In this document: one piece after another, positions 9,075 to 46,240 of the stretch | Layout: the number at the start of each line of letters is the position of its first letter | Numbering within the stretch: position 1 is the stretch's first letter | Source of the DNA: a bacterium | Lineage (GTDB): Bacteria; Patescibacteriota; Minisyncoccia; JAUYLV01 | NCBI GenBank assembly: GCA_030649025.1 | Contig: JAUSGO010000033.1 | Span: 1-53,320, forward strand | Direction of reading: 5' to 3' | DNA: 53,320 bases | The notes under the pieces: generated by a model | Database searches by the model: none | Seen by the model: only the letters and a program-made list of their open reading frames with translations | Told to the model about the DNA's origin: nothing | Made by a program: the position numbers and the translations under genes

Positions 9075-9749
9075 CTACGACACGATGATTACGAATTCGC
9101 CACGCGGATTTTTTTCAATTTCCGGAAGAATTTCATCAAAAGTTCCGCGATACACTGTCTCAAACTTCTTGGTCAATTCCCGGCAAACAATCACCTTTGT
9201 TACTTGTTTTTTGTTATCTGCTTCTTTGAGCTCTCGAAGAGAGCGAATGATGCGATGTGGAGATTCGTAAAATATTACCGGGTATTGCGCCAGCACGATT
9301 TCTTCAAAGAATTTTTTTCGTTTCTTCTTGTGCGGCGGGAACCCCATAAATAAAAAACGGTCTAGGGGAGTTCCTGCAATGCTGGAGGCGGCAATTAAAG
9401 CGCTTGGACCCGGGACGGGAGAAATGGTTACCGTGCTCCCAAGTGCGCGTACTACTTGAGCAACAAGTTTTCCGCCGGGATCCGAAATGCCCGGAGTCCC
9501 CGCATCGGTGGCATAGGCAATGTCCTTCCCGTCTTGCAGGAGCGCAATGGCTTTTTCTATGGCTTTATCCTGGACCCGCTCTCGCAGTGACAGAAGAGGC
9601 TTGGATATGCCAAAGTGCGCAAGCAGTTTTCCGGTGACACGCGTGTCTTCGCAAAATAACGTATCAACTTCTTTAAGAATCCGTAATGCCCGAAGCGTCA
9701 TGTCTTCCAAGTTTCCGATAGGAGTGGCTATGATATAGAGCGTAGGCAT
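9075..9749 (-). CDS. rsmI: 16S rRNA (cytidine-1402-2'-O)-methyltransferase
   Basis: 224 aa. The N-terminus TLYIIATPIGNLEDMTLRAL is the RsmI signature of the tetrapyrrole-methylase fold; FCEDTRVTGKLL, ATDAGTPGISDPG and the SAM-binding VTISPVPGPSALIAAS follow. The family methylates the 2'-O of C1402 in the decoding centre of 16S rRNA. The protein is shorter than the E. coli enzyme (286 aa), lacking the C-terminal extension, as is common in small genomes. First gene of the cluster rsmI-metG-tatD-leuS. Confidence 0.94.
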   Translation of the reverse strand: MPTLYIIATPIGNLEDMTLRALRILKEVDTLFCEDTRVTGKLLAHFGISKPLLSLRERVQDKAIEKAIALLQDGKDIAYATDAGTPGISDPGGKLVAQVVRALGSTVTISPVPGPSALIAASSIAGTPLDRFLFMGFPPHKKKRKKFFEEIVLAQYPVIFYESPHRIIRSLRELKEADNKKQVTKVIVCRELTKKFETVYRGTFDEILPEIEKNPRGEFVIIVS

Positions 9750-9903: not shown

Positions 9904-10467
9904 CTAATTCTTATATAAATTCGTAAGATATGCTTCTATGGCAAGCGTTTTGGTTCCTGTTTGCGTACCCCAGGTCAGAGTTATTGTGAATTTTTTGGTG
10001 TCCGGATCAAGGGTTCCGGAAGAGGCAATGTCATCATTGGTGTCGCGATACACGTTTTGCATCACCGCCGTCCGAGTGAAAAAACCGTCGAGCGCTCCGG
10101 GATCGGAAGAGGAGAGTATCCAAGCGCTTGCGGTCGGCACGATATAATAGGTGGTGCTTGCGGAGAGTGTGCCGATGCGCGTGGACCAGCTCTCATCCCG
10201 CATGGCGTGTAAAGCCTCAACACCTTCATGGGCATAGTACCCCGCGCGCAGTTCAAGTTTCTTCTCGGAAGAGATGCGGTGCGAGAGGCCGGCAACTTCC
10301 GCGATAGAAAAAAGTAGAACGGTCGCGACGAATATGACGATCATGACTTCGATGACGCTGATGCCGCGCTGAGAATTTCGAATCGCGTATTGCCCAGCCT
10401 CGCCTCGCCGTCTCGGCGAGGCGGGCGTATTGCGGATTAAATTCGTGATTCGTGATTCGTGATTCAT
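9904..10467 (-). CDS. Type IV prepilin-like protein (minor pseudopilin)
   Basis: 187 aa. The prepilin signal RG|ISVIEVMIVIFVATVLLFS has cleavage after Gly and Glu at position +5, followed by a hydrophobic helix; the rest is a small secreted head domain (GspI/PilV-like at best). The leader before the cleavage site is unusually long (about 35 residues) because it is encoded by a palindromic element with tandem 7-nt units (10372-10467), which also supplies the ATG. No better start lies closer to the cleavage site. Begins 6 nt behind the preceding pilin gene and ends at a palindromic terminator-like element. Confidence 0.75.
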   Translation of the reverse strand: MNHESRITNLIRNTPASPRRRGEAGQYAIRNSQRGISVIEVMIVIFVATVLLFSIAEVAGLSHRISSEKKLELRAGYYAHEGVEALHAMRDESWSTRIGTLSASTTYYIVPTASAWILSSSDPGALDGFFTRTAVMQNVYRDTNDDIASSGTLDPDTKKFTITLTWGTQTGTKTLAIEAYLTNLYKN

Positions 10468-10468
10468 A
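10372..10468. repeat. Palindromic element with heptamer arms inside the prepilin leader
   Basis: The inner stem CGCCTCGCCG (10401-10410) pairs perfectly with CGGCGAGGCG (10414-10423) over a 3-nt loop. The right arm carries three exact ATTCGTG units (10441-10461) plus a degenerate fourth; the left arm GAATTTCGAATCGCG is partly complementary. GCGTATTGC occurs on both sides of the inner stem. Confidence 0.65.
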
Positions 10469-10473
10469 ATTCT

Positions 10474-11369: not shown

Positions 11370-11451
11370 AATTTCAAATATCTAATATCAAATATCTAAT
11401 AAAAATCCTCAAAGTTTTATTGGAAATTAGATATTAGGCATTGGATATTAT
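11370..11451. repeat. Palindromic spacer with heptamer arms
   Basis: Left arm built from ATATCTA/ATATCAA units (11378-11400), right arm ATTAGATATTAGGCATTGG (11426-11445), imperfectly complementary. Same design and motif as 15331-15405. It fills the gap between the pilin gene and pilC. Confidence 0.6.
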
Positions 11452-15322: not shown

Positions 15323-15330
15323 TGCAAAGA

Positions 15331-15405
15331 ATCTCTAATATCCAATATCTAATATCTAATCAAGGCTTTGCCATTAGAGATTAGGAGTTAGACATTAGAA
15401 ATTAT
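15331..15405. repeat. Palindromic spacer with heptamer arms
   Basis: Left arm of AATATCT-type units (15336-15360), right arm ATTAGAGATTAGGAGTTAGAC (15373-15393), imperfectly complementary; same motif as 11370-11451. It separates the receiver gene from pilB and abuts the pilB GTG start region. Confidence 0.6.
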
Positions 15406-18618: not shown

Positions 18619-18675
18619 ACGGGCTGATTCAAAAATTCTCAAATGCATCGATACCATACTGCCAATGATCAAAAA

Positions 18676-19770
18676 ATGGAACGGGGAAGATTAAAATTCA
18701 GTTCCCTACTATTTGTTATTTGTTATTTGCTATTTGCTTCTTTTTTTGGGCGTGGCGCGCATGCCCAGTCTCCCGGCTTTTCCGTTTCTCCCGTAAAAAC
18801 ATTCACCACTCTCCGGCGCGGAGAAACTTATCGGGGCGTTTTCGAGATCGTAAATAAAAGTTCCGTACCTCTGCCTCTTGCGGTAAAGGCGGAGTTCTTC
18901 GGCATTTCGGATGAGTTGGGTTCCGTGGTGTTTCGCGATTCATTGGGCTTTGCCTCCGGAGACAATCCCGATACGTGGCTCGTGCTGTCGAATCCCTTCT
19001 TATTGCTTGGACCAGGAGAGTTCCGCCCGGTTCCCTACACGCTCACCGTTCCAGCCGATGCGGCTTTCGGCACCTATACGATAGCGGCGGTTTTTCAATC
19101 GAAGTTCCCCGAATTGACCGAAGCAAAAAACAGCGCCCAGCTTCTTCCGGGAATAGGCGCGCTCTTTTTTGTTGACGTGGTGTCCCGGCCGGGAGAGGCG
19201 CTTGCGGAAAAAGGCCAGCTTACGGTAAAGGATTTCTCCATTCCGGAGAGCCAAATAGTGCAGTTCAGGCCATTCGGCGCCTCACTCGTCCAGACCCTGA
19301 AACTAGATCGCATATCGTTGGCTTTTATTGAAGGAAGTCCTCTCACATTCACCGCGCGGCTTTTCAATGAAGGGCGGTATCTGGCCCGTCCTACAGGACA
19401 CGTTTCCATCTCTAACATTTTAGGGAGCGAGATAGGGCGCGTTCCGTTTCCCGATGGGGCGGTTCTGCCGGAAGCTTTGCGCGCGTACGCGATATCGTTT
19501 ACAAGAACGCCCCGTTTCCCGTCCCTGGGCTTCATTCCCGATTTCTTGCAAAGAGGGTTTCTTCCCGGCCGCTACACGGCCCGTCTTGTCCTTGACGCCA
19601 ATTCCGATTATGTGGCCTCTCCGGGGCCTTCCGTCATCACGTTCTGGGCATTTCCAAGGCTGTTCGTGTTATCCACAGCTCTACCCCTTACATTCCTTTT
19701 GTTATTCGTGGTATTATATAGAAAGCGATTCTTATCCGCCTTAAAAGTACTTCTATGGCGAAAATCATAA
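18676..19770 (+). CDS. Membrane-anchored WxL-interacting-like protein (DUF916-like), copy 1
   Basis: 364 aa from the ATG at 18676 (an in-frame ATG at 18643 is possible). Signal peptide RLKFSSLLFVICYLLF...AHA|Q; the ectodomain opens GFSVSPVKTFTTLRRGETY followed by VFEIVNKSS, the pattern of DUF916/WxIP beta-sandwich domains; the C-terminus has one membrane segment (about 328-350) and a short basic tail. In Firmicutes such proteins pair with WxL surface proteins; here the stop overlaps the start of the next gene, a WxL-like secreted protein. The hydrophobic core of the signal peptide is encoded by four tandem 7-nt units (18710-18737). Assignment rests on domain pattern and layout. Confidence 0.65.
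   Translation: MERGRLKFSSLLFVICYLLFASFFGRGAHAQSPGFSVSPVKTFTTLRRGETYRGVFEIVNKSSVPLPLAVKAEFFGISDELGSVVFRDSLGFASGDNPDTWLVLSNPFLLLGPGEFRPVPYTLTVPADAAFGTYTIAAVFQSKFPELTEAKNSAQLLPGIGALFFVDVVSRPGEALAEKGQLTVKDFSIPESQIVQFRPFGASLVQTLKLDRISLAFIEGSPLTFTARLFNEGRYLARPTGHVSISNILGSEIGRVPFPDGAVLPEALRAYAISFTRTPRFPSLGFIPDFLQRGFLPGRYTARLVLDANSDYVASPGPSVITFWAFPRLFVLSTALPLTFLLLFVVLYRKRFLSALKVLLWRKS
18710..18737 (+). repeat. Heptanucleotide tandem repeat in signal-peptide codons
   Basis: Two TATTTGT units followed by two TATTTGC units, 28 nt without interruption, inside the coding region. As 7 is not a multiple of 3, a change of one unit shifts the frame of the surface protein. Confidence 0.8.
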
Positions 19771-21071
19771 AACGGTATTCTTTCAAAGTGTTTGCTTTGG
19801 TTTTGGCCATTAGCATGTTCGGTTTCTATTTTTCCTTTGTAGACAGGTCACAGGCGGCACAGGTTTCAAGCCGTAGCGATACGCTCAATAACTCCGGAGC
19901 CTCGTTTAGCTTTGTGCAACCCACCGCTGTAACGTCCAATCACACGTTCGTTTTCACGATAGAAAACAGCCTGGATACTGTTGGATGGAACGGGGCAGAT
20001 AGCAAAAGCGCGTCGGATACCATCGTGATCACTATTGATCCTGACGCAAGCGGCTTTGATTTAACCGGAATTGATTGCGGAGATGTGGACCTTGCTTTTG
20101 GCGCAATACCCGGCACATCAGCCAGTATTTCTGATAATGCAAATGGCGGCAGCCGCACGACACGGACAAGTTGCCCGGGGTCAGCGACGACCTGGGGCCT
20201 TTTCATTGATTCTTCGGCGGATACCCTTACGTTTTACACGCCAACAGCGGTGCAGACGCATGTGGTGACCAGCACCATTGTGAATGTTCGCGTTGGCCTT
20301 AACGCAACGTTTCAAGACACGGGGAACGAGGTTATTACCAATCCTACGGCCGTAGGAACCAAGAAGATGCGTGTTGGCGGCACATTTGGAGGGACCGGCG
20401 ATATGCTTGTTGCTATTTTGAGCGGCGTTGAAGTGTCGGCAACGGTAGCCGAGACGCTTACTTTCAACATTTTTGGGCTTCCCGGTCAGGGTCCTGCGGG
20501 AAACATTAATAACATGGCTTCTTGTAATTCGATTCCGGGAACAACCGACGATGATGACAGCGAGACCATTACGCTTGTTACCACCACGGCAACCTCGGTT
20601 CCTTTTGGAGCAATCACTTCAGGTAATGTATATCAAGGATGCCAACGTCTTGCGGTTTCCACCAATGCGGCGGGAGGCTATACTGTAAGCCAGCGTTCAA
20701 ATAACTCCCTGAAAACCACTGGTGACGCGATTATTCCTGATACCGTATGCGATGGTACCCCGAATTGTACGCCATATATAGAGGACACCTGGACTAGTAA
20801 TGCCCCGGGGCTTGGCGTGAGCTGTAAGAGTTCCACCAATACATCCTCATCTTGTTCAGCATCAAGTCCAAACTATGCTAATGGTGCTAACTTTACTCCC
20901 TTTGCCAACGAGAGCGCAGGATTTGTCTCCTCAACGCGGTTTTCCACCACCTCGGTTGCTCCATGGGGAGAGATTCAAATAAAAGCAAAGTATCGCCTGA
21001 TAATTCCGGGTACCCAGGCCGCAGGAACATACACGAATATCGTTAATTACATTGCAACGCCTATATTTTAG
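19755..21071 (+). CDS. Secreted WxL-like surface protein, copy 1
   Basis: 438 aa, overlapping the previous gene by 16 nt. Signal peptide with site near QAAQ (about residue 35); mature part begins VSSRSDTLNNS. The N-terminal 200 residues share a domain with the protein at 22445 (VSSR.D.L.NS; TSNHT; IDCGDVD; VVTSTIV...R.G.NATFQ; TNP). The C-terminal part is rich in Thr, Ser and Asn with paired Cys and ends GTYTNIVNYIATPIF, the kind of terminal beta strand seen in WxL-like and CPR surface proteins. Probably a secreted cell-surface or fibre subunit. Followed by a strong terminator. Confidence 0.65.
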   Translation: MAKIIKRYSFKVFALVLAISMFGFYFSFVDRSQAAQVSSRSDTLNNSGASFSFVQPTAVTSNHTFVFTIENSLDTVGWNGADSKSASDTIVITIDPDASGFDLTGIDCGDVDLAFGAIPGTSASISDNANGGSRTTRTSCPGSATTWGLFIDSSADTLTFYTPTAVQTHVVTSTIVNVRVGLNATFQDTGNEVITNPTAVGTKKMRVGGTFGGTGDMLVAILSGVEVSATVAETLTFNIFGLPGQGPAGNINNMASCNSIPGTTDDDDSETITLVTTTATSVPFGAITSGNVYQGCQRLAVSTNAAGGYTVSQRSNNSLKTTGDAIIPDTVCDGTPNCTPYIEDTWTSNAPGLGVSCKSSTNTSSSCSASSPNYANGANFTPFANESAGFVSSTRFSTTSVAPWGEIQIKAKYRLIIPGTQAAGTYTNIVNYIATPIF

Positions 21072-21112
21072 ACCTCGGCGCATTCCCACAAACTATTGCA
21101 AAAGTTGTGTAT

Positions 21113-21138
21113 AAACTCCCCTTGTAAGGGGAGTTTTT
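21113..21138 (+). terminator. Terminator behind the first surface pair
   Basis: ACTCCCCTT pairs with AAGGGGAGT over a 2-nt gap and is followed by T5. It separates the two WxIP-like/WxL-like modules. Confidence 0.8.
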
Positions 21139-21169
21139 GGTGTGGTATGATAATTTTGCAGTTTTTGTG

Positions 21170-21301
21170 CCCCCACACTAATCGTCTGCCTATAGGATGT
21201 CTATAGGTTTGTTACGAAGTCTAGTTTTTTAGTGAATACTTTGTTCTTCGAGAGTGTTACTTGTGACGCTTCGCGTCGCAAACAGACAATTAGTGTGGGG
21301 G
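21170..21301. repeat. MITE-like inverted-repeat element, copy 2
   Basis: 132 bp. CCCCCACACTAAT (21170-21182) pairs exactly with ATTAGTGTGGGGG (21289-21301); then GTCTG/CAGAC continues the stem past one mismatch. The interior aligns with copy 1 (2513-2640) in patches. It lies between a terminator and the next surface gene, and no target-site duplication is obvious. Confidence 0.7.
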
Positions 21302-21314
21302 TGTGAGCTAAATT

Positions 21315-22235
21315 ATGCAAAAACTATTTTTGTGGCTATCTTCTTTTTTTGTGGGCATGAGCATGCCCATTTTTGCGTTGGCGCAGTCGTCAGGAATTAC
21401 GATTTCACCCCTTACCTTTGAACTTACGGCCGACCCCGGAGAGATGGTTTCAAATAAATTACTGGTTACCAATCCAACCGGAGGCTCTCTTATTTTTGAA
21501 ATGGAAGTGCAGGATTTCACGGCCGCGGGAGAAGGAGGAGAAGTTATCGTGGGGCCCGATGTGGATGAAACCCTTTCCATGGAGCGATGGGTTTCAACGA
21601 ATCCCATGCGTTTTACCCTGGAGCCCGGAAAAACCCAAGTGGTTGATTTTACCGTCTCGGTGCCCCAGGACGGCGAGCCGGGGGGGCATTATGCTACGAT
21701 TCTTGCGACCATCAAGGGCTCTACGGACGTAACGGGGTCTGCTATATCGCAAAAAGTTGGCTCACTGGTGCTTCTTTCCGTCTCCGGATCCATCCGCGAG
21801 GAGTTATTTATCCGTGAATTTTCCGTACCGTCTTTTTCCCAGCAGGGTCCCATATCGTTCCTGGTGCGTTTTGAGAATATCGGTTCGGTGCATGTGATGC
21901 CGATGGGCTTTGTCACCATCGCGGATTTTTTTGGGAACAAGGTTGCGGATGTTCCGCTCTCTCCGAAAAGAGTTTTGCCGGGCAATACGAGAAAAATAGA
22001 GGTCATGTGGGATAAGCGCTATCCTATTGGAAAATTTACCGCGACGCTCGTGGGAAGTTTTGGGATTTCAAACACGCCTATTTCGGCGGTCACGACATTT
22101 TGGGTCTTCCCGTGGAAAATTGCGCTTGAAGTTCTCGGAGGACTTATCGTGCTTCTTGTGGTGCTTATCAAAACGCGGAAACGCTTCCGTGCGGCCTTCA
22201 ACATATTGTTTAAAGGGGAACATGCTTCGTTATAG
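21315..22235 (+). CDS. Membrane-anchored WxL-interacting-like protein (DUF916-like), copy 2
   Basis: 306 aa. Signal peptide (cleavage near ALAQ, about residue 24), ectodomain opening SGITISPLTFELTADPGEMV then KLLVTNPT, with PGGHYATILATI in the middle as in DUF916 domains; C-terminal membrane segment about 268-290 and a basic tail. Paralogue of the protein at 18676, sharing the layout signal - beta domains - membrane anchor - basic tail. Placed ahead of the dockerin-tagged secreted protein, so it may tether or help export that protein. Confidence 0.65.
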   Translation: MQKLFLWLSSFFVGMSMPIFALAQSSGITISPLTFELTADPGEMVSNKLLVTNPTGGSLIFEMEVQDFTAAGEGGEVIVGPDVDETLSMERWVSTNPMRFTLEPGKTQVVDFTVSVPQDGEPGGHYATILATIKGSTDVTGSAISQKVGSLVLLSVSGSIREELFIREFSVPSFSQQGPISFLVRFENIGSVHVMPMGFVTIADFFGNKVADVPLSPKRVLPGNTRKIEVMWDKRYPIGKFTATLVGSFGISNTPISAVTTFWVFPWKIALEVLGGLIVLLVVLIKTRKRFRAAFNILFKGEHASL

Positions 22236-22260
22236 CTTCCGCTTTGCCTGCAAAGCGAAG
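22236..22260 (+). terminator. Hairpin behind copy 2 WxIP-like gene
   Basis: CTTCCGCTTTG pairs with CAAAGCGAAG with one bulge. No T run follows, so it may be an mRNA 3' structure rather than a terminator. Confidence 0.35.
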
Positions 22261-22338
22261 CAGATACGTGGCATTACCGACTCTCTTGTGCAAATTTTCC
22301 CCTAGTTCGTAATCAAGCCGCGAGGTACACTAAGCCTG

Positions 22339-22429
22339 CCCGCCACAGCCCCTCTTCCGATGTTTGACACGCATCCGATGCCCCGAAGTACTATCGGAAG
22401 ACCGCCGCATCTTTTATGGCGGGCTTTGG
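22339..22429. repeat. Palindromic spacer element
   Basis: AAGCCTGCCCGCCA pairs with TGGCGGGCTT; the inner CTTCCGAT pairs with ATCGGAAG. It fills most of the gap before the dockerin-bearing gene. No ORF inside. Confidence 0.55.
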
Positions 22430-22444
22430 TAAGTAGGAAGGACC

Positions 22445-23908
22445 ATGGCGAGTCCTATTTTTTATCTTAATAACAAGGGAAAGAACCTACGTTCTCAATG
22501 GAAGAACGCGCTTGTTGTTGTAATTGGAATGAGCGCGTTCTTTTCTTTTTATTTTGGACGAACGCTCATTGTTCAGGGCGCACAGGTCTCAAGCCGTGGC
22601 GACGAGCTTTCCAACTCAAATATATCCGCAACATCGAACCATACGCTGACCTTTGTCGTACAGGATGATATCGCCGCGGGAGAGACGCTCACGATAGATT
22701 TCCCTGATTTTTCGGGGCTGGCGGACATTGACTGCGGAGACGTTGACGCCTCAACGTCCGTTGAATTCGGTTTTAACTCCGCCTCGCATCTTTCCAGCTG
22801 TGCCGCAACTGCAACGGCATGGGGCTTTGCAGTATCGGGAACGGCGTTGACCTTGACGGCTCCGACCGCTCCGGGAGTGTATGTGGTAACGAGCACCGTC
22901 GTTATCATACGCATCGGATCCAATGCGACGTTCCAGGAACAAGGAACGAGCTGGATGACCAATCCTGCAAGCGCAGGAACAAAATTCGCGAACATATCCG
23001 GAACATTCCAGCAAAATGTAGTGATTTCTGGCATCGTTGTTGCCATTGGCGAAGGCTCTGCAGTGAGTGCAACGGTTCCGGGTCCCTCGTTAACTCCCAC
23101 GCCTACGCCCGCGCCAACGCCGACTCCCGCTCCGGGAGGAGGGGGAGGAGGAGGGACCATCTTGCCTCCTGCGGGCGAGACAGCGGTAACGCTTGCCGGC
23201 AAGGCCTATCCGCGGGCATTTGTTACGGGGCTCAAAAATAGCCAGGTCGTTTCAACCGTCAGCGCGGGGGAAGACGGCATGTTTGAGATAAAACTCAAAG
23301 GGATACAGCCCGGAATTTATACATTCGGCGTATTTGCGGAAGATGCAAAAGGGCGTAAATCGCTTACCCTCTCGTTCACCATCAATGTCATTAAAGATCT
23401 GACGAACATGGTCAGCGGTATTTTTATTCCGCCGACCATCATCACCAACCGCGACATCTTTTACCCGGATGAGACGCTTGAAATTGATGGATATGCGTTC
23501 CCAAAAAGCAATGTCAATGTCGTATTTAATTCCTCGCATGAAATTTTAGAGCGCGTCTCGTCTGACGCAGACGGCCTATGGTTGCTCGCCTATTCTTTGC
23601 AAAATCTCGGCATTGGAGACCACTCGACGCGCGCAAAGACGCAAGCGCCGGATGGGGATCAGAGCACTTTTTCGGAAACGCGGCTTTTTCGCATTTTCCC
23701 CAAAGGCGTGCCGCTTCCCACTCCTACGGGGCCCGTATGTCATGGGGCGGATCTGAATAACGACGGAAAGGTGAACCTTGTTGATTTTTCCATTTTGCTC
23801 TTCTGGTGGCAGTCGCGGAATCCCCAGAATCCCTGCGCCGATATCAATAAAGATGGTATTGTGAACCTAGTTGATTTCAGTATTATGATGTTCCAGTGGA
23901 CCCGGTAG
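22445..23908 (+). CDS. Secreted surface protein with WxL-like, Ig-like and C-terminal type I dockerin domains
   Basis: 487 aa. Signal peptide about 1-44; residues 45-215 repeat the WxL-like domain of the protein at 19755; residues 216-240 are a Pro/Thr then Gly-rich hinge; two Ig-like/carboxypeptidase-regulatory-like domains follow (about 245-325 and 330-420); residues 428-487 form a dockerin, two EF-hand-like calcium loops (ADLNNDGKVNLVDFSI and ADINKDGIVNLVDFSI) with D1, N3, D5, G6 and D12 in place. The two loops are near-identical, as in classical dockerins. SD-like AGGAAGG lies just before the ATG. Four cohesin-like anchors follow at once on the same strand, so this protein is the obvious dockerin partner. 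Confidence 0.8.
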   Translation: MASPIFYLNNKGKNLRSQWKNALVVVIGMSAFFSFYFGRTLIVQGAQVSSRGDELSNSNISATSNHTLTFVVQDDIAAGETLTIDFPDFSGLADIDCGDVDASTSVEFGFNSASHLSSCAATATAWGFAVSGTALTLTAPTAPGVYVVTSTVVIIRIGSNATFQEQGTSWMTNPASAGTKFANISGTFQQNVVISGIVVAIGEGSAVSATVPGPSLTPTPTPAPTPTPAPGGGGGGGTILPPAGETAVTLAGKAYPRAFVTGLKNSQVVSTVSAGEDGMFEIKLKGIQPGIYTFGVFAEDAKGRKSLTLSFTINVIKDLTNMVSGIFIPPTIITNRDIFYPDETLEIDGYAFPKSNVNVVFNSSHEILERVSSDADGLWLLAYSLQNLGIGDHSTRAKTQAPDGDQSTFSETRLFRIFPKGVPLPTPTGPVCHGADLNNDGKVNLVDFSILLFWWQSRNPQNPCADINKDGIVNLVDFSIMMFQWTR

Positions 23909-23910
23909 GC

Positions 23911-24095
23911 GCGGGCAAGCGGTTGCATTCTTTTCGCTTAACGCTCCGGATGAGAAAACCAAACAAAGCCTCGCAACGTAGTATTGCGAACTCCTCGCCC
24001 CCGGCTCGTCAGACAGCGCAATACTACGGCTCGGCTTTGATGGCTTTAACTCATCCGCCGCTAATCCGCTCAAAGAAAACAACCGCTTGCCCAGA
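23911..24095. repeat. 185-bp palindrome between dockerin and first cohesin gene
   Basis: Arms of about 75 nt: GGGCAAGCGGTTG ... CGTAGTATTGCG against CGCAATACTACG ... CAACCGCTTGCCC, with matching blocks GGATGAG/CTCATCC between. The central loop is about 28 nt. It is the largest palindrome in the window. Confidence 0.7.
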
Positions 24096-24155
24096 GGTGA
24101 ATAAATTTTCTATTTGAAAAATAAAAAATCCGTGGCATGGATGGAAAAAACTAGT

Positions 24156-25334
24156 ATGCGGTCATACCTAAAACATCTTATTAATATCCTGTTGTTGGTT
24201 GTTGGTTGTTGGTTGTTGGTCGCAGGCGTCGCTAATGCTTCCGCGCTGTTTTTCAATCCGCAGGACGGGATAGAGGTTGAGGAAGGAGAGAGTATAGTGG
24301 TGGAGGCAAGACTTGATACCGAGGGGAACTCCATCAATGCCATTGACGCACTGATGCATTTTTCTCCGCAAGCATTTGAGGTGGCTGACGTTTCCCGTGG
24401 CGACTCGGCGATCACGCTCTGGATAACAGAGCCGCTTATCGATAATGCCAACGGAACGGTGCGTTTTATGGGAGGAATTCCTTTGGGGGCGTCTTTCACT
24501 TCCGGGCTTATCGCAAAAATCACCCTGCAGGCGCGTGCCGTTGGAGAATCCATGCTGGGTTGGGACAGAGCTTCTCAAATTCTGCTCAATGACGGGCGGG
24601 GGACGAAGGACGAACTGGAGGTGCTTGAAACATCTGCGAAGGTCACGCCGGCTCTTACGGACGTTCCCCGCATTTCCTCCTCATCCCATGAAAATCAATC
24701 GAAATGGTACAAGGGAACAACGCTTGTCGTGTCCTGGATTCCTGCGAAAGAAGCATTATACAGTTATGTGCTTGACCATGATTCGCGTAGCGTTCCGGAC
24801 ACGCTTGCGGATACTCCGCAGGGCGAACTTCGCTTTGACGGATCTTTAAAATACGAAGGCCTTACGGAAGGAGTGTACTATTTCCATCTGCGGGAAGGCG
24901 TTAAAGAGCCTGACGTGGTCCGATGGAGCCGCACAAGAACATTTCGCGCGCAAATCGATACCACGCCGCCGAACGCGCTCTCTGCCCAAATCGGCTCGGA
25001 CCCTTCCTTGTATGAAGGAAAATTTTTCGTGTCATTTTCCGGGAGTGATACTTTGAGCGGCACAGACCGGTATGATGTTTGGGAGGTGTCGGGCGACTGG
25101 ACGGAGCGTGCTATCTCTCCGCACAAACTTCTCGGCCAAGAAACTGACGCGCCAATAAAGGTACGGGTTTTGGATAAAGCCGGAAATCAGCGGGAAATTC
25201 TTGTTTCCTATCCCCCAAAGCCCGGAAAGGAACCCATGACCCTCTATGAGATTATTGGGGGGGTAGTTGTTTTAGCGGCCCTGCTTATTGCTGGATGGAT
25301 TTGGCGATATCGCAGAAAGAGAAGCAAGCTTTAA
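24156..25334 (+). CDS. Membrane-anchored cohesin-domain protein 1
   Basis: 392 aa from the ATG at 24156 (in-frame upstream starts at 24141 and TTG 24114 exist). Signal peptide, then a cohesin-like domain (about 30-165: ALFFNPQDGIEVEEGES, NAIDALMHFSPQAFEV, GTVRFMGGIPLG, LLNDGRGT), an Ig/FN3-like module (YYFHLREG..., DTTPP) and a second one, a membrane segment (about 365-384) and a short basic tail. Of the four cohesin proteins this is the only one without a proline-rich C-terminus. Signal-peptide codons consist largely of four exact GTTGTTG units. The cohesin call rests on motif pattern and the adjacent dockerin. Confidence 0.72.
   Translation: MRSYLKHLINILLLVVGCWLLVAGVANASALFFNPQDGIEVEEGESIVVEARLDTEGNSINAIDALMHFSPQAFEVADVSRGDSAITLWITEPLIDNANGTVRFMGGIPLGASFTSGLIAKITLQARAVGESMLGWDRASQILLNDGRGTKDELEVLETSAKVTPALTDVPRISSSSHENQSKWYKGTTLVVSWIPAKEALYSYVLDHDSRSVPDTLADTPQGELRFDGSLKYEGLTEGVYYFHLREGVKEPDVVRWSRTRTFRAQIDTTPPNALSAQIGSDPSLYEGKFFVSFSGSDTLSGTDRYDVWEVSGDWTERAISPHKLLGQETDAPIKVRVLDKAGNQREILVSYPPKPGKEPMTLYEIIGGVVVLAALLIAGWIWRYRRKRSKL
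24191..24218 (+). repeat. Heptanucleotide tandem repeat (GTTGTTG x4) in signal-peptide codons
   Basis: Four exact, uninterrupted GTTGTTG units inside the open reading frame of cohesin protein 1. One unit more or less would shift the reading frame before the cohesin domain. Confidence 0.85.
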
Positions 25335-25373
25335 AAGGGAGGCCACTTCTCCATAACCCTCTTAAATTGGTCA

Positions 25374-25382
25374 TGGTACAAT
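25374..25382 (+). promoter_or_regulatory. Extended -10 promoter, leaderless, for cohesin protein 2
   Basis: TGGTACAAT with the -10 hexamer at 25377-25382. The ATG at 25389 lies 7 nt after the hexamer, so the transcript would begin at the start codon. No clear -35. Confidence 0.5.
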
Positions 25383-25388
25383 AGTATT

Positions 25389-26792
25389 ATGCCTTTTTTG
25401 CGTTTATTTTTCTCTTTTTTGCTTATTGTAGGGGTTTTAAAATCAGCAATTCCGGCCCGGGGGGCGGAAAGTGCCTCGTTGTCTTTGGCACCGGCATACG
25501 GCGCATATCTGGTAGGAAGCACTTTCGAAGTATCCATATTTCTTGATACCCATGGAAGCCAAATAAATGCGGTTGAGGTACAGATGACCTATCCGCCGGA
25601 CATTCTACAGATTATCAAGCCCGCAGGCGGCACGTCGTTCATTCAAACATGGTTTTTCCCGCCGACATTCTCCAATAAAGATGGAACGCTGGCGCTTGCC
25701 GGCGGAATTGCGCCCGGAGGCATCAACACATCAAACGGGCTTATTACCACCGTGACCTTTCGTGCGGTAGCCCCGGGAGATGCCGCTCTTTCCATTTTAA
25801 AGACGTCAAAGGTCCTTATGCACGACGGCAAGGGGACCGATATTCTGGGTTCCCGGGGGAGTGCGGTTTTCACCATTCGCGTTCGTCCTCCGGAAGGTCC
25901 GAATGTTTCTTCGCCCACAAACCCGGATCCGAACCGATGGTATCAAAATAACGCCCCGCTTTTTACCTGGCAGCCGACAGAGGGGGGCGGCGGCTACAGT
26001 TTCTCGCTGAACGAGAACTCGGAAGACATTCCTCTGCCGGAAGTGCTTACTGGAGACCTGGTGAAAGCGTACTCCGATGTGAAAGACGGTATCCAATACT
26101 TTCATATTCGAGTTTACAAGGACGGCGCGTGGAGCGGCGTAACGCATCTTCCCGTACGGATCGATTCAACTCCACCCCTCCCGTTTACTCCGCGAATTGA
26201 GTATGCGCCGCAACTGGGCGCGCCGCCGATAGTGTTTTTTGAAACCAAAGATGCGCACGCAGGGGTAGACCACTACGCCGTCAAGGTCATTCGAACGGAT
26301 GAAACAAGCGGCATTGAAGAGGACATAACGCCGTTTTTTGTGGAAACCGAAAGTCCCTATAAAGTTCCGGTGAGTTTTCCCGGAAAATACACGGTGGTGG
26401 TGCGCTCGTTCGATAAAGCGGGAAATACCCGGGATGCGGTCGTGAATATCGTTACGCCGACGGTGGCGTTACTCTCCGATCAGGGCATTAAATTCAAAAA
26501 CTATTTTATTCCTTTCAAGGTGGTCTATATGTTCTTTGGGTTTTTGCTTATCGCGCTCTTCTTGTGGGGCGTGTATCTTCTGCGCAATGTCCGCGCGATA
26601 CGCTTGCGCACCACGCGCGATATTGCCTCGCTCTCCCAGGAGATGCAAAAAGAATATTTGCGGTTCGGAGAGCACTTCACACACGAATTCGAGAATAAAA
26701 ATCCTCAACAAAACTCGTACCAGGTGCCGCAAGGGAAGATAGAAGAACCGGCTTCCGAGGCTCCGGACGCGCCACTACCCCCGCCGCAATAA
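25389..26792 (+). CDS. Membrane-anchored cohesin-domain protein 2
   Basis: 467 aa. Signal peptide (about 1-24), cohesin-like domain (27-160: ASLSLAPAYGAYLVGSTFEVSIF, NAVEVQMTYPPDILQI, ALAGGIAPGGINTSNGLI, MHDGKGTDILGS), Ig/FN3-like modules (WYQNNAPLFTW, YFHIRVYKDGAW, IDSTPP; then VRSFDKAGN), membrane segment about 376-398, then a 69-residue cytoplasmic tail ending APLPPPQ. Close in layout and sequence to the protein at 28794. Predicted anchor for dockerin-bearing partners; the conserved tail suggests an intracellular contact. Confidence 0.75.
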   Translation: MPFLRLFFSFLLIVGVLKSAIPARGAESASLSLAPAYGAYLVGSTFEVSIFLDTHGSQINAVEVQMTYPPDILQIIKPAGGTSFIQTWFFPPTFSNKDGTLALAGGIAPGGINTSNGLITTVTFRAVAPGDAALSILKTSKVLMHDGKGTDILGSRGSAVFTIRVRPPEGPNVSSPTNPDPNRWYQNNAPLFTWQPTEGGGGYSFSLNENSEDIPLPEVLTGDLVKAYSDVKDGIQYFHIRVYKDGAWSGVTHLPVRIDSTPPLPFTPRIEYAPQLGAPPIVFFETKDAHAGVDHYAVKVIRTDETSGIEEDITPFFVETESPYKVPVSFPGKYTVVVRSFDKAGNTRDAVVNIVTPTVALLSDQGIKFKNYFIPFKVVYMFFGFLLIALFLWGVYLLRNVRAIRLRTTRDIASLSQEMQKEYLRFGEHFTHEFENKNPQQNSYQVPQGKIEEPASEAPDAPLPPPQ

Positions 26793-26795
26793 CAA

Positions 26796-26888
26796 TGCAA
26801 AATAATGGATGCGCGAAGGTTTTATGTGTAAAATCTTCGCAAGATTCCAAAATTTTGATTTTTGACTTTTGATTTTTACATTTGTGCA
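26796..26888. repeat. Palindromic spacer sharing a roughly 70-bp unit with the lysS leader
   Basis: A hairpin GCGAAGGTTTTA/TAAAATCTTCGC (26814-26841) is followed by AGATTCCAAAATTTTGA and TTTTGAT-type heptamers. The same order and nearly the same bases occur at 46160-46232 before lysS. In both places the next gene starts right behind. Confidence 0.7.
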
Positions 26889-26891
26889 GGC

Positions 26892-28715
26892 ATGAAGTTA
26901 TCTACGAGAAGTTCCATTCTGCTTATTGGTATATGTTTGCTTGGGTTCTCTACCCGTATACTTTTTCTGCCTGCGCAGGCCGCCGGAGCTACTCTTTTTA
27001 TTTCTCCGGCTACCGGAACCTCGGCCGTTGGAGTGAATTTTTCGGTTTCCTTCAGACTTAATTCCGGTGGCGTCTCTATTAATGCCGCAGAAGGCAATCT
27101 TGCATATGAACCCGATGAGCTTGAAGTCGTCTCGATTTCAAAATCCGGGTCCATTTTTAACATCTGGACGCAAGAACCCGTTTTTTCAAATACTGCCGGC
27201 TCCATCAGTTTTGGCGGCGGCGTTCCCTCGCCCGGGTTCAACGGTTCCTCGGGTCTTATCTTTACCGCAACGCTGCGGCTCAAAAAATCTGTAAGCACGA
27301 CACTCCGGTATGTATCCGGCTCAGTCCTTGCAAATGACGGGCAAGGCACAAATGTGCTTGCCGCAAGCCAGAGCGCGACATTTTCTCCGGGTGTCCCAAA
27401 GCCGAAACCAACGCCGGTTCCTTCCCAGGTTCCTATCACACTTCCTTCTCCGCCGCTCATATCCTCTCCCACTCATCCGGTAAATCTCGTTGAACATCCC
27501 GATGCGACGCTCTGGAGCAATAATAACGATCCGGAATTCAATTGGAGATCGGATCCGGATGCCAACAGTTTTTCGTATGTGTTTAACCGCGATCCCTCGA
27601 CGGTTCCCGATACGGTATCGGAAGGGTCGTTGACCGCCAAAGTGTATTCTGATGTTGAAGATGGCATCTGGTTCTTCCATATTCGCTCCCAGAATGCAGG
27701 CGGATGGGGAAGCATGGTGCACTATGAAGTGCACATTGACGCAACACTCCCGGAGAGTTTCGATGTGAATATAGTGGGCGGACGAGATATTTTTGATCCG
27801 GAGCCGGAAATCCAGTTCGGTACCAAAGACATCACATCGGGCATTGACCATTACATAGTTCGACTGGGAAGCGCCGAGCCCCGCATAATAACTCCCGCCG
27901 AAGCCGGACATCCCGTTGGGCTCGGTACGCTTTCAGGGGGTATCCATGCGGTGCGGGTGCGTGCGTATGATCGTGCAGAAAACCATCGCGAGGCGTTTGC
28001 GGAATTTACTATCGGGACGCTGGAACCCCCCGTCATTACCGCATACGCGAAAACCATCTCATCGGACGAGGTCATATTTCTTGAAGGGAAAGCAATTCCG
28101 AACATCACCGTTATCGTTGCCATTGAACGTGTTGACGGCACCCAGCGAGTTACCCGCGAGGTCGCAAGTGACGCAGACGGCAGTTGGACGTTCCTGGGAA
28201 AGCAATTCCGGGGCGCGGGCCAGTGGCGCATCACGGCCCAGTCGAAGAATGCACAGGGCGCGGTCTCGGAAAGAAAAGCGGAGGTTGCTTTTGAGATCCT
28301 TTCCTCGGTAATACACATCGGCAGCTACACGCTCACCTATGCTTCCGCGTATGGCATGGGAGGAAGTGTCCTTTCGCTGTTATCGGTTATCGTTCTCATA
28401 GCCTTTCTCCACTACAGAAAAAAAATCAAGAAGTTCCACAAAAGAGTCCTTAAGGAAGTCACGGAGGCCGAGTATGCGGTGCGCGCGGGTTTTCAGACCC
28501 TGCGCGGGGATGTGATTGAAGAATTGCATACCATAGATGCCCTACAGGCCATGCGTACGCTTATGCCCGAGGAGACGGCAAGACGGGAAAAGCTTTTGAG
28601 GGATCTGGCGTTCATTGAATTTCAGGTAACCAAGGAAGTTCAGGACATTGAAGGGGTACTTAAGGGTTACTCGCTTTCCAAAGAGGATTTGCCGCCCCCA
28701 CCCCCGCCGCAATAG
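26892..28715 (+). CDS. Membrane-anchored cohesin-domain protein 3
   Basis: 607 aa from the ATG at 26892. Signal peptide, cohesin-like domain (about 29-160: ATLFISPATGTSAVGVNFSVSFR, NAAEGNLAYEPDELEV, SISFGGGVPSPGFNGSSGLI, ANDGQGTNVLA), Pro-rich linker, Ig/FN3-like modules (WSNNNDPEFNW, WFFHIRSQNAGGW), and an extra Ig-like domain (LEGKAIPNITV...VASDADGSW) akin to that in the dockerin protein. One membrane segment (about 487-506), then a 101-residue, partly helical and charged cytoplasmic tail ending DLPPPPPPQ. The longest of the four, and the one with the largest cytoplasmic part. Confidence 0.75.
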   Translation: MKLSTRSSILLIGICLLGFSTRILFLPAQAAGATLFISPATGTSAVGVNFSVSFRLNSGGVSINAAEGNLAYEPDELEVVSISKSGSIFNIWTQEPVFSNTAGSISFGGGVPSPGFNGSSGLIFTATLRLKKSVSTTLRYVSGSVLANDGQGTNVLAASQSATFSPGVPKPKPTPVPSQVPITLPSPPLISSPTHPVNLVEHPDATLWSNNNDPEFNWRSDPDANSFSYVFNRDPSTVPDTVSEGSLTAKVYSDVEDGIWFFHIRSQNAGGWGSMVHYEVHIDATLPESFDVNIVGGRDIFDPEPEIQFGTKDITSGIDHYIVRLGSAEPRIITPAEAGHPVGLGTLSGGIHAVRVRAYDRAENHREAFAEFTIGTLEPPVITAYAKTISSDEVIFLEGKAIPNITVIVAIERVDGTQRVTREVASDADGSWTFLGKQFRGAGQWRITAQSKNAQGAVSERKAEVAFEILSSVIHIGSYTLTYASAYGMGGSVLSLLSVIVLIAFLHYRKKIKKFHKRVLKEVTEAEYAVRAGFQTLRGDVIEELHTIDALQAMRTLMPEETARREKLLRDLAFIEFQVTKEVQDIEGVLKGYSLSKEDLPPPPPPQ

Positions 28716-28791
28716 CAGCTTATAGCTGTTAGCTGATAGTTTATGGGAATTTCGGTCCAAAAGCTAAAAGCTAAAAGCTAAAAGCTATAAG
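28716..28791. repeat. Palindromic spacer with AGCTATA/AAAAGCT heptamer arms
   Basis: Left arm CTTATAGCTGTTAGCTGATAG, right arm three AAAAGCT units plus ATAAG; the arms are complementary. Same motif as 42696-42786 and 45580-45666. It fills the gap before cohesin protein 4. Confidence 0.7.
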
Positions 28792-28793
28792 CG

Positions 28794-30170
28794 ATGAGAT
28801 TCTCTTCAAAAAAACTACTCCAGATTTTTCTTGTGCTCGCTGTTATCAGCGCACAGTTTTTATTCGGTTCCTCATCGCAGGCGGCCGAAGGTGCTTCATT
28901 GCAATTTTCTCCCTCAAGCGGGACATTTTTTTTGGGAAGCACTTTTAATGTGTCGCTCACGCTTAATACGGGAGAAGCGGCGGTAAACGCCCTGGAAGTG
29001 CAGGTGAAATTCCCTCCAGACAAATTACAGGTGGCAAGTCCTTCTATTGGCACGTCGTTTATCTCTATTTGGGTCACCCCCCCAAGCTACTCGAACACCG
29101 AAGGCACGCTTACGTTTCGCGGCGGGGTGCCCAATCCCGGCATTATCACTTCTAACGGCGTTATCTCTACCGCGACGTTCCGTGCAAGAGACACGGGGGA
29201 GGCGGAATTGGAGTATATTGTGACATCCCAGGTTCTTGCGAACGACGGCAAGGGCACGAATATTCTAAAAAGCCGCGGCATTGCCCGGTTTACTATTGTT
29301 ATTCCCCCTCCCGAAGGACCCGAGGTGTTTTCTCCAACCCAACCGGATCCGAATGTGTGGTATAAAAAGACCGATGCGGCATTTTTTTGGAAAAGCGGAG
29401 AGAGCGTTGATGGGTTCAGCTACGCATTAAGCCAGGATCCATTCGAGACTCCCGACGAGATTTCCGAAGGCGTAAATACCTCTGCGACATTCTCGAACAT
29501 TCTCGACGGCATATGGTATTTTCATATCCGTTCCCATGTCGGTGATGTGTGGGGCGGCGTGACGCATTACCTTATACGTACTGATCGGGGACTGCCCGCG
29601 GCTTACACACTCTCCATAATTCCAAAAGGACCGCTCACCCCGCTTGAACATCCGCTAGTTACGTTTTTTACTACCGATGAAACGAGCGGCATGGACCATT
29701 ACGAAGTGCGCATTGCCAAATTAAGCGGGGAGGAAGAGAGTCGTTCCGTTTCGTTCTTTACCGAGGAAACAAGCCCCTTTGCGTTTCCGGTTGTTGAGCC
29801 GGGCACCTACCAGGTGGTGGTACGTGCGTTTGACCGGGCAGGCAACACGCGCGATTCGCTGGAAAAAATTGAATTAACGCCGCCCCAGCCACAGCGGTTT
29901 ACCAAAGACGGTTTTCGGGTTTATGCCATGATTATCCGATGGACATGGGCGTATCTGTTTCTTGGTCTTCTTTTGCTTCTTTTGCTTTTTTTGGTGTGGC
30001 TTTTGCGCCACAAACACTATACGCGCGAGGAAGAATTGCAGAAAAATCTTACCGAAACCGAAGAGAAACTTCTGCAAGAATATCAGGAGATGTATCAGCG
30101 CGTTCGGACGTATCGGACGGCTCCTCCGATTGACGAGAGTTCTCTTCCCCCCCCGCCCCCGCCGCAATAA
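28794..30170 (+). CDS. Membrane-anchored cohesin-domain protein 4
   Basis: 458 aa. Signal peptide ending near QAAEG, cohesin-like domain (27-160: ASLQFSPSSGTFFLGSTFNVSLT, NALEVQVKFPPDKLQV, TLTFRGGVPNPGIITSNGVI, ANDGKGTNILKS), Ig/FN3-like modules (WYKKTDAAFFW, WYFHIRSHVGDVWGG; VRAFDRAGNTRDS), membrane segment about 382-404, and a 54-residue tail ending SLPPPPPPQ. Closest relative in the window is protein 2 (25389), which suggests duplication. Last gene of the cohesin series. Confidence 0.75.
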   Translation: MRFSSKKLLQIFLVLAVISAQFLFGSSSQAAEGASLQFSPSSGTFFLGSTFNVSLTLNTGEAAVNALEVQVKFPPDKLQVASPSIGTSFISIWVTPPSYSNTEGTLTFRGGVPNPGIITSNGVISTATFRARDTGEAELEYIVTSQVLANDGKGTNILKSRGIARFTIVIPPPEGPEVFSPTQPDPNVWYKKTDAAFFWKSGESVDGFSYALSQDPFETPDEISEGVNTSATFSNILDGIWYFHIRSHVGDVWGGVTHYLIRTDRGLPAAYTLSIIPKGPLTPLEHPLVTFFTTDETSGMDHYEVRIAKLSGEEESRSVSFFTEETSPFAFPVVEPGTYQVVVRAFDRAGNTRDSLEKIELTPPQPQRFTKDGFRVYAMIIRWTWAYLFLGLLLLLLLFLVWLLRHKHYTREEELQKNLTETEEKLLQEYQEMYQRVRTYRTAPPIDESSLPPPPPPQ

Positions 30171-39331: not shown

Positions 39332-39449
39332 GCTAAATGCAAAATTAAAAAATCAAAAATCAAAATTATGGACTATCGTGAAAGTTTTCTTGAAGAAAAC
39401 TTTCACTCCATAATTTTACATTTTGAGATTTGCATTTTACATTTTTAGC
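39332..39449. repeat. Palindromic spacer with AAAATCA heptamer arms
   Basis: Runs GCTAAATGCAAAAT to ATTTTACATTTTTAGC, with AAAAATC-type repeats on the left; at its centre GTGAAAGTTTTCTT is followed by its near-exact complement ending AACTTTCAC. The proS start codon is the next base. Confidence 0.7.
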
Positions 39450-42696: not shown

Positions 42697-42786
42697 TCAG
42701 CTTATAGGTTTTAGCTTATAGCTTATAGGATTTTTTTAGATCCTCTCCTGAAAGCTATCAGCTATCAGCTATCAGCTATCAGCTAG
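42696..42786. repeat. Palindromic spacer with GCTTATA/CTATCAG heptamer arms
   Basis: Left arm GCTTATAGG-TTTTAGC-TTATAGC units; right arm four CTATCAG units (42755-42784). The arms are complementary. The PBP2 start codon (TTG, 42787) follows at once, so repeat number sets the mreC-mrdA spacing. Confidence 0.75.
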
Positions 42787-45583: not shown

Positions 45584-45666
45584 TAGATAATGGCTTATCG
45601 CTTTTAGGGGGAAAGACTCTGGGCAGATTTTTCCTATAAGCTATCAGCTGTAAGCTATAAGCTAGT
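45580..45666. repeat. Palindromic spacer with AGCTATA heptamer arms
   Basis: Left arm CAGCTGATAGATAATGGCTTAT, right arm ATAAGCTATCAGCTGTAAGC and a further TATAAGC unit. Shares its motif with 28716-28791 and 42696-42786. The left arm overlaps the folD stop codon; greA starts just behind. Confidence 0.65.
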
Positions 45667-46120: not shown

Positions 46121-46240
46121 CCGGAAAATCAAAATATAAATCTCAAATATCAAAATGGTGGAGGCGCGAAGATTTTATGCATAAAACCTTCGCAAGATTC
46201 CAAAATTTTGATTTTTGACTTTTGATTTTTTAATTTTTTT
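46121..46240. repeat. Palindromic spacer sharing a roughly 70-bp unit with 26796-26888
   Basis: Left arm AAAATCAAAATATAAATC, central hairpin GCGAAGATTTTA/TAAAACCTTCGC (46165-46192), right arm of TTTTGAT-type heptamers (46204-46230). The lysS ATG follows within a few bases. Confidence 0.7.

Follow-up and report, generated by a model that had tools for sequence, protein, structure and literature searches.

Heptanucleotide tandem arrays in spacers, signal peptides and conserved genes of a Patescibacterium

Heptamer arrays and the genes that carry them

The window analysed here, contig JAUSGO010000033.1 of a member of the Patescibacteriota (assembly GCA_030649025.1; 53,320 nucleotides), contains three heptanucleotide tandem arrays at genes for exported or pilin-type proteins, and their positions, first given in an original prediction that they are phase-variable loci, were confirmed in the sequence. 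In the first, four units (TATTTGT, TATTTGT, TATTTGC and TATTTGC; 18710-18738, plus strand) encode the h-region, LLFVICYLLFASFF, of the signal peptide of a WxIP-like exported protein (18676-19770, plus strand), which likely starts at the ATG at 18676, or alternatively at 18643. The second, an exact (GTTGTTG)x4.3 array at 24191-24220 on the plus strand, encodes the signal-peptide h-region of an exported cohesin-cluster protein (24156-25334, plus strand; ATG at 24156, N-terminal sequence MRSYLKHLINILLLVVGCWLLVAGVANA) in which no Pfam domain scored above the cut-off. The third, (ATTCGTG)x3.6 on the minus strand at 10441-10472, consists of 10441-10465 and a degenerate fourth unit, and lies between two pilin-type genes; the only ATG of the prepilin open reading frame (ORF) at 9904-10467 is created by the degenerate unit, which gives an unusual 35-residue leader. 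The claim that each of the three is placed after the start codon and ahead of the mature protein stands for the arrays at 24191 and 18710 and is uncertain for that at 10441. The claim that a T-rich heptamer array can encode a usable h-region is supported, the two h-regions having been judged by inspection.

Other exported proteins do carry heptamers in the same place, as the original prediction had asked. The WxIP-type homologues with signal-peptide heptamers are a paralogue on contig 14 (LFRISGFGFRI), one in genome G021 ((TTATTTT)x3) and one at locus L053 of G001, a sister-genus genome and, among the genomes compared, the one relative in the same family; in the last, the n-region (TKYQIPDTKY) comes from an A-rich array and the h-region (LITGYWLLV) from a T-rich one, the pattern to be expected if an inverted pair were read through. 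A further WxIP-type homologue in G001 (L048) has a signal peptide built as (LIG)n from a 9 nt tandem repeat, and the leader (MKFSKPISYKLKAKSSKG|FALVEV) of a second prepilin-like gene (L030:12532-13056) contains a heptamer array of the C family. We do not claim an enrichment of arrays in signal peptides (16.5 versus 5.5 per 100 kb), because three of the eight arrays come from the window that prompted the count, one of the three lies ahead of the likely start codon, and the remaining loci had been chosen in part for TsaD, MnmA and UvrC.

Abundance, length and pairing of the arrays

The genome, whose FtsH in the window is closest to that of Candidatus Azambacteria (69% identity) and then to those of other Paceibacteria/Parcubacteria, was sampled over 615 kb of its 1.23 Mb, with up to 20 kb per contig; the B family described below was alone counted by a search across the whole genome. 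The sample holds 35 exact period-7 arrays with 2.5 or more units, as against 0-1 in three Markov-3 shuffles, so the starting arrays are far above chance; periods of 8-24 give 0-3. With mismatches allowed there are 37, compared with 1 in the Markov null and 0-4 at other periods. Such an excess of tandem 7 nt units over other periods is the mark of the heptamer long simple sequence repeats (SSRs) of the Mrazek class and of the short tandemly repeated repetitive (STRR) sequences, and 50 kb of Escherichia coli MG1655 contains no period-7 array. Within the window, Tandem Repeats Finder at a low threshold reports about 20 heptamer rows, the majority intergenic, and about ten arrays lie beyond those already mentioned, mostly in spacers preceding housekeeping genes; a scan of the window with Rfam returned rRNA and tRNA only. 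Mean lag-7 autocorrelation of the spacers was abandoned as a signal, being weak, with the arrays concentrated in a subset of spacers.

Array length was surveyed over 2.78 Mb of Patescibacteria, spacers and genes included. The distribution has a sharp mode at 30-33 nt, identical for spacer and gene arrays, with very few arrays above 36 nt and, among exact runs, a second peak at 30-32 nt; the three starting arrays (29, 30 and 32 nt) lie at this mode. One explanation to be weighed is that local polymerase slippage with a preferred 7 nt step, a proposal reportedly made by Mrazek in 2007, creates arrays under weak selection, and that inverted pairs follow by hairpin-templated copying. It accords with the 107 different units encountered, with the homogenization of units within arms that differ between the two sides of one palindrome (for example, window 42699-42785), and with the finding that, among long SSRs, heptamers are the most frequent in many bacteria (PMC4679880, PMC4692102). 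But the lengths are sharply limited at 30-33 nt and are not geometric, identical units turn up within a single genome at genes and spacers that are unrelated, and the family cores are dispersed. We therefore think this explanation unlikely, and the sharp mode that stands in place of a decaying tail makes a defined unit likely; the heptamer array looks like such a unit and not like the product of slippage alone.

In the spacers the arrays form inverted pairs around a core. Their best inverted match within 250 nt has a mean score of 11.6, compared with 8.0 for the best direct match and 7.7 in the shuffle null, and where period-7 arrays pair with one another, 16 pairs are inverted and none direct in this genome (19 and 5, respectively, at other Patescibacteria loci). 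Arms often start 1-13 nt past a stop codon and end 1-15 nt ahead of the next start codon, and the genes downstream are ordinary ones, such as those for PBP2, GreA, LysS and ProS. Several unit families keep a constant orientation in this genome (AATATCT, TCAAAAA/TTTTGCA, AGCTTAT/CTATAAG, AATTACG and AACAAAT/TATTTGC); a proposed rule assigning every left arm to the C type and every right arm to the G type was dropped, since it was true for only 24 of 35 pairs.

Palindromic elements of the window, to which no strand is assigned, include A-family inverted pairs at 15330-15404 (AATATCT arms about the core GGCTTTGCC) and at 11370-11450, upstream of a pilin-type gene. C-family pairs lie at 28717-28792 (AGCTTAT and AAAAGCT arms), at 42699-42785 between mreC and a PBP2-like gene (AGCTTAT and AGCTATC arms), and at 45584-45664 between folD and greA. 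A B-family element, in which two arms flank a GTGAAAG hairpin core, occupies 39335-39446 between RseP-like and ProS genes, and B-type elements with a B2 core are found upstream of a cohesin protein (26798-26883) and between greA and lysS (46121-46240). Two of the starting arrays have kin elsewhere: that at 18710 is an E-type arm, matching others in the genome at 87-92% over 24-32 nt, and the region of that at 10441 is related to a D-type element (L018:4499-4546; 81% over 48 nt). At 42699-42785 and at L018:4481-4547 the two arms of one palindrome consist of different unit variants, each arm being uniform, which suggests that units turn over within arms once a palindrome has formed.

A search with one copy of the B element, which measures about 104 bp, recovered about 20 nearly full-length copies from this genome, at 70-93% identity to that query; G001 yields about eight, and other genomes mostly arm-only matches. 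When 24 copies were aligned, including a single B2-type relative, 96% of the cells of the consensus stem were paired and nine pairs showed double changes; doubly changed paired cells numbered 30, as against 8.1 in shuffles and 1-9 in slid controls. From this pairing and these compensatory changes we infer that the B palindrome is maintained, at least in its core, or else renewed by copying. The same changes, the U-rich 3' arm that follows the hairpin and the position between stop and start codons would all be expected if the intergenic elements were functional RNA hairpins, acting as terminators or processing sites, with coding arrays as by-products. We consider this quite improbable, as the elements occur in both orientations relative to genes, in-frame inserts in enzymes are left unexplained, and the greA spacers of 29 relatives lack arrays, unlike that at 45584-45664; turnover at greA spacers is lineage-specific. 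A further repeat dispersed among spacers, about 97 bp long and with copies 79-98% identical, lies at L004:9955-10051 and in about 12 other spacers (L016, L011, L024, L008, L021, L029 and L019) and apparently lacks heptamer arms.

In-frame arrays in conserved genes

Rickettsia palindromic elements (RPEs) and their Wolbachia relatives are dispersed palindromes situated both between genes and, as extra peptides, in frame within them. The unit families seen in the spacers here likewise occur in frame within conserved cytosolic genes, among them TsaD, GyrA, MnmA, UvrC, a RecJ-like gene and glycosyltransferases (host genes being named by inspection and homology), and over 26-52 nt the coding arrays agree at 80-97% with arms in the spacers of their own genome. 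TsaD residues 130-159 coincide exactly with a gap against PDB entry 8iey, and the MnmA insert falls at residues 132-150 against 9hlv. At the GyrA site, G001 (80% identical) is seven codons shorter and has no array, and G032 carries an independent (AAAATTC) array. These are in-frame insertions in conserved genes that are absent from homologues, as RPEs are; the inverted partner is mostly missing, so that, unlike RPEs, entire palindromes are not generally contained within the gene. An E-type array of the window lies at 9196-9227 on the minus strand, within a coding sequence (9075-9749) that is RsmI-like by inspection.

The same sites are used repeatedly. The 30 TsaD rows contain 33 arrays, which come from 16 genomes, represent 22 different units and cluster at residues 75, 133-158 and 224-228 in each protein's own numbering. 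The 30 MnmA rows contain 17, built from 15 units, and 13 of these arrays lie at residues 133-149; UvrC and GyrA (30 rows each) have 8 and 2 arrays, and FtsH 2 in 81 rows. At the few tolerant loops that are shared in TsaD and MnmA, the heptamers thus differ between Paceibacteria genomes. The GyrA frames of G002, G007, G016, G019 and G026 (L336, L337) are 1200-1344 aa long, with the match broken near residue 103-165, and probably contain inteins.

These genes bear directly on phase variation, in which gain or loss of units in signal-peptide arrays would toggle exported proteins. As predicted, one unit gained or lost truncates both proteins (365 and 393 aa) to 29-63 aa, as would any change not divisible by three, and three added units restore the frame. 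Heptamers equally frequent within cytosolic genes had been named beforehand as grounds for refutation, and the counts go that way: about 29 of the 31 coding arrays of the genome sample lie outside signal-like N-termini, many of them in genes that are cytosolic and probably essential (TsaD, GyrA, MnmA and UvrC), in which a one-unit change would likewise shift the frame. The majority of all arrays are intergenic, and the greater part lie outside exported proteins. The arrays have only four units, with a mode at 30-33 nt and no long tail, unlike contingency loci, where arrays are long, open-ended and restricted to contingency genes. The Haemophilus hmw genes, which encode surface proteins, are said to carry variable 7 bp repeats in a promoter position; the unit length and the adjoining surface-protein genes are alike, but the hmw arrays are variable promoter arrays, whereas the arrays considered here are coding, of four units and generic. 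Because like arrays occupy probably indispensable genes, are short and are mostly not in exported proteins, phase switching is very improbable, and heptamers in surface-protein genes are no evidence for it when they are present genome-wide.

Dispersed palindromic repeats as a probable source of the arrays

We put at roughly 60% the probability that each array represents an arm, whether paired or solo, belonging to dispersed Patescibacteria palindromes that are tolerated where the protein sequence is loose. This explanation draws together the observed period and length limit, the pairing of arms in inverted orientation, the dispersal of the families, the in-frame inserts that homologues lack, their recurrence at particular loops and the lineage-specific turnover at greA spacers. 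Each arm would span about 31 nt, or 4.4 units, and keep strictly to a 7 nt period, with a unit that varies by family and genome, and the full element would comprise arm, hairpin core and inverted arm, filling spacers, often from stop codon to next start codon. Solo arms would persist in frame within genes only where the sense strand is stop-free and the site accepts extra residues; the A-rich strand would give hydrophilic loop peptides in cytosolic enzymes (for example, KIKNQKS and SYKLKAK) and the T-rich strand hydrophobic stretches in signal peptides (LLFVICYLLF, LLLVVGCWLLV), which would be one kind of tolerant place among others. The repeats probably spread by copying or insertion, and are presumably near-neutral or selfish and not regulatory switches.

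Several points weigh against an origin from dispersed repeats. The 107 canonical unit types are hard to reconcile with one mobile element family, and the array at 24191 has a single weak relative and no inverted partner by the best inverted match within 250 nt. As to a possible classification as miniature inverted-repeat transposable elements, inverted arms are present, but the aligned B-family copies and their flanks revealed no target-site duplication, and a transposase search limited to Y1_Tnp found no match in the genome, so that a Y1 transposase of the REP-associated tyrosine transposase (RAYT)/IS200 type was rejected as mobilizer. Gene calls came from a home-made finder.

Among known systems a close analogy, by layout and not by sequence, is with RPEs, and the heptamer palindromes may work in a similar way; both sit between genes and in frame within conserved genes, but the Patescibacteria arms are 7 nt tandem arrays of many units and the coding inserts are mostly solo arms. 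The GGGAATC repeats of Xanthomonas and Nostoc are likewise heptamer arrays, mainly intergenic, with a mode of four units and about 70 convergent inverted pairs per genome (PMC4692102); they have a single G-rich unit and a tail to 26 units, whereas in the Patescibacteria arrays the units are many and A/T-rich, lengths break off near 33 nt and coding inserts are frequent. In Beggiatoaceae, Cyanobacteria and Bacteroidetes, direct repeats of TAACTGA lie a few nucleotides ahead of start codons, as our arrays often do, and some encode heptapeptides (LSVISYQ) within ORFs, but they have a single unit, are almost never inverted, and have their coding copies at protein ends (PMC4679880). According to citations in PMC4692102 and PMC4679880, a 7 nt period is also favoured in the cyanobacterial STRR heptamers and in the long SSRs that Mrazek described in 2007; those accounts, in the parts available to us, describe neither palindromic families with cores nor recurrent loop inserts. 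The tandem repeats of Borg elements also create new peptide stretches in proteins, but are reported to be direct repeats on archaeal extrachromosomal elements (PMC9879509). An excess of heptamers, their inverted pairing and their presence ahead of start codons are thus already known from Xanthomonas, Nostoc and Beggiatoaceae; our literature search, which covered sources outside subscription journals, found no paper on heptamers in Parcubacteria and no description of a multi-unit, length-limited Patescibacteria class with recurrent in-frame loop inserts.

A bolder proposal, which we hold only tentatively and think somewhat doubtful, is that mobile palindromes with heptamer-array arms of about 31 nt occur phylum-wide, a putative spreading mechanism setting both period and arm length. 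Because a 7 nt period is read through all frames, with one strand encoding charged and the other hydrophobic peptides, such elements could repeatedly supply genes with ready cores for signal peptides, with leaders and with surface loops. If our preferred explanation holds, much of the odd insertion in Patescibacteria housekeeping proteins would have a single cause, namely a size-limited repeat scattered through small, streamlined genomes and remodelling protein loops and signal peptides. The old puzzle of favoured 7 nt repeats in bacteria would also become testable, since hundreds of genomes offer arrays whose lengths, periods and insertion sites can be tallied.

Viral contigs scanned with the flank of the cohesin-cluster gene gave no match. 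Another dispersed repeat, some 140 bp long (window 23909-24140) and found also at L005:10237-10576 and L029:18998-19171, immediately precedes the first cohesin-cluster gene that has heptamers in its signal peptide. The surrounding region (22445-30170) forms a cluster of exported cohesin-/dockerin-type proteins in a Patescibacterium, with a dockerin at 22445-23908 and cohesin matches at 26862-28715 and 28794-30170.

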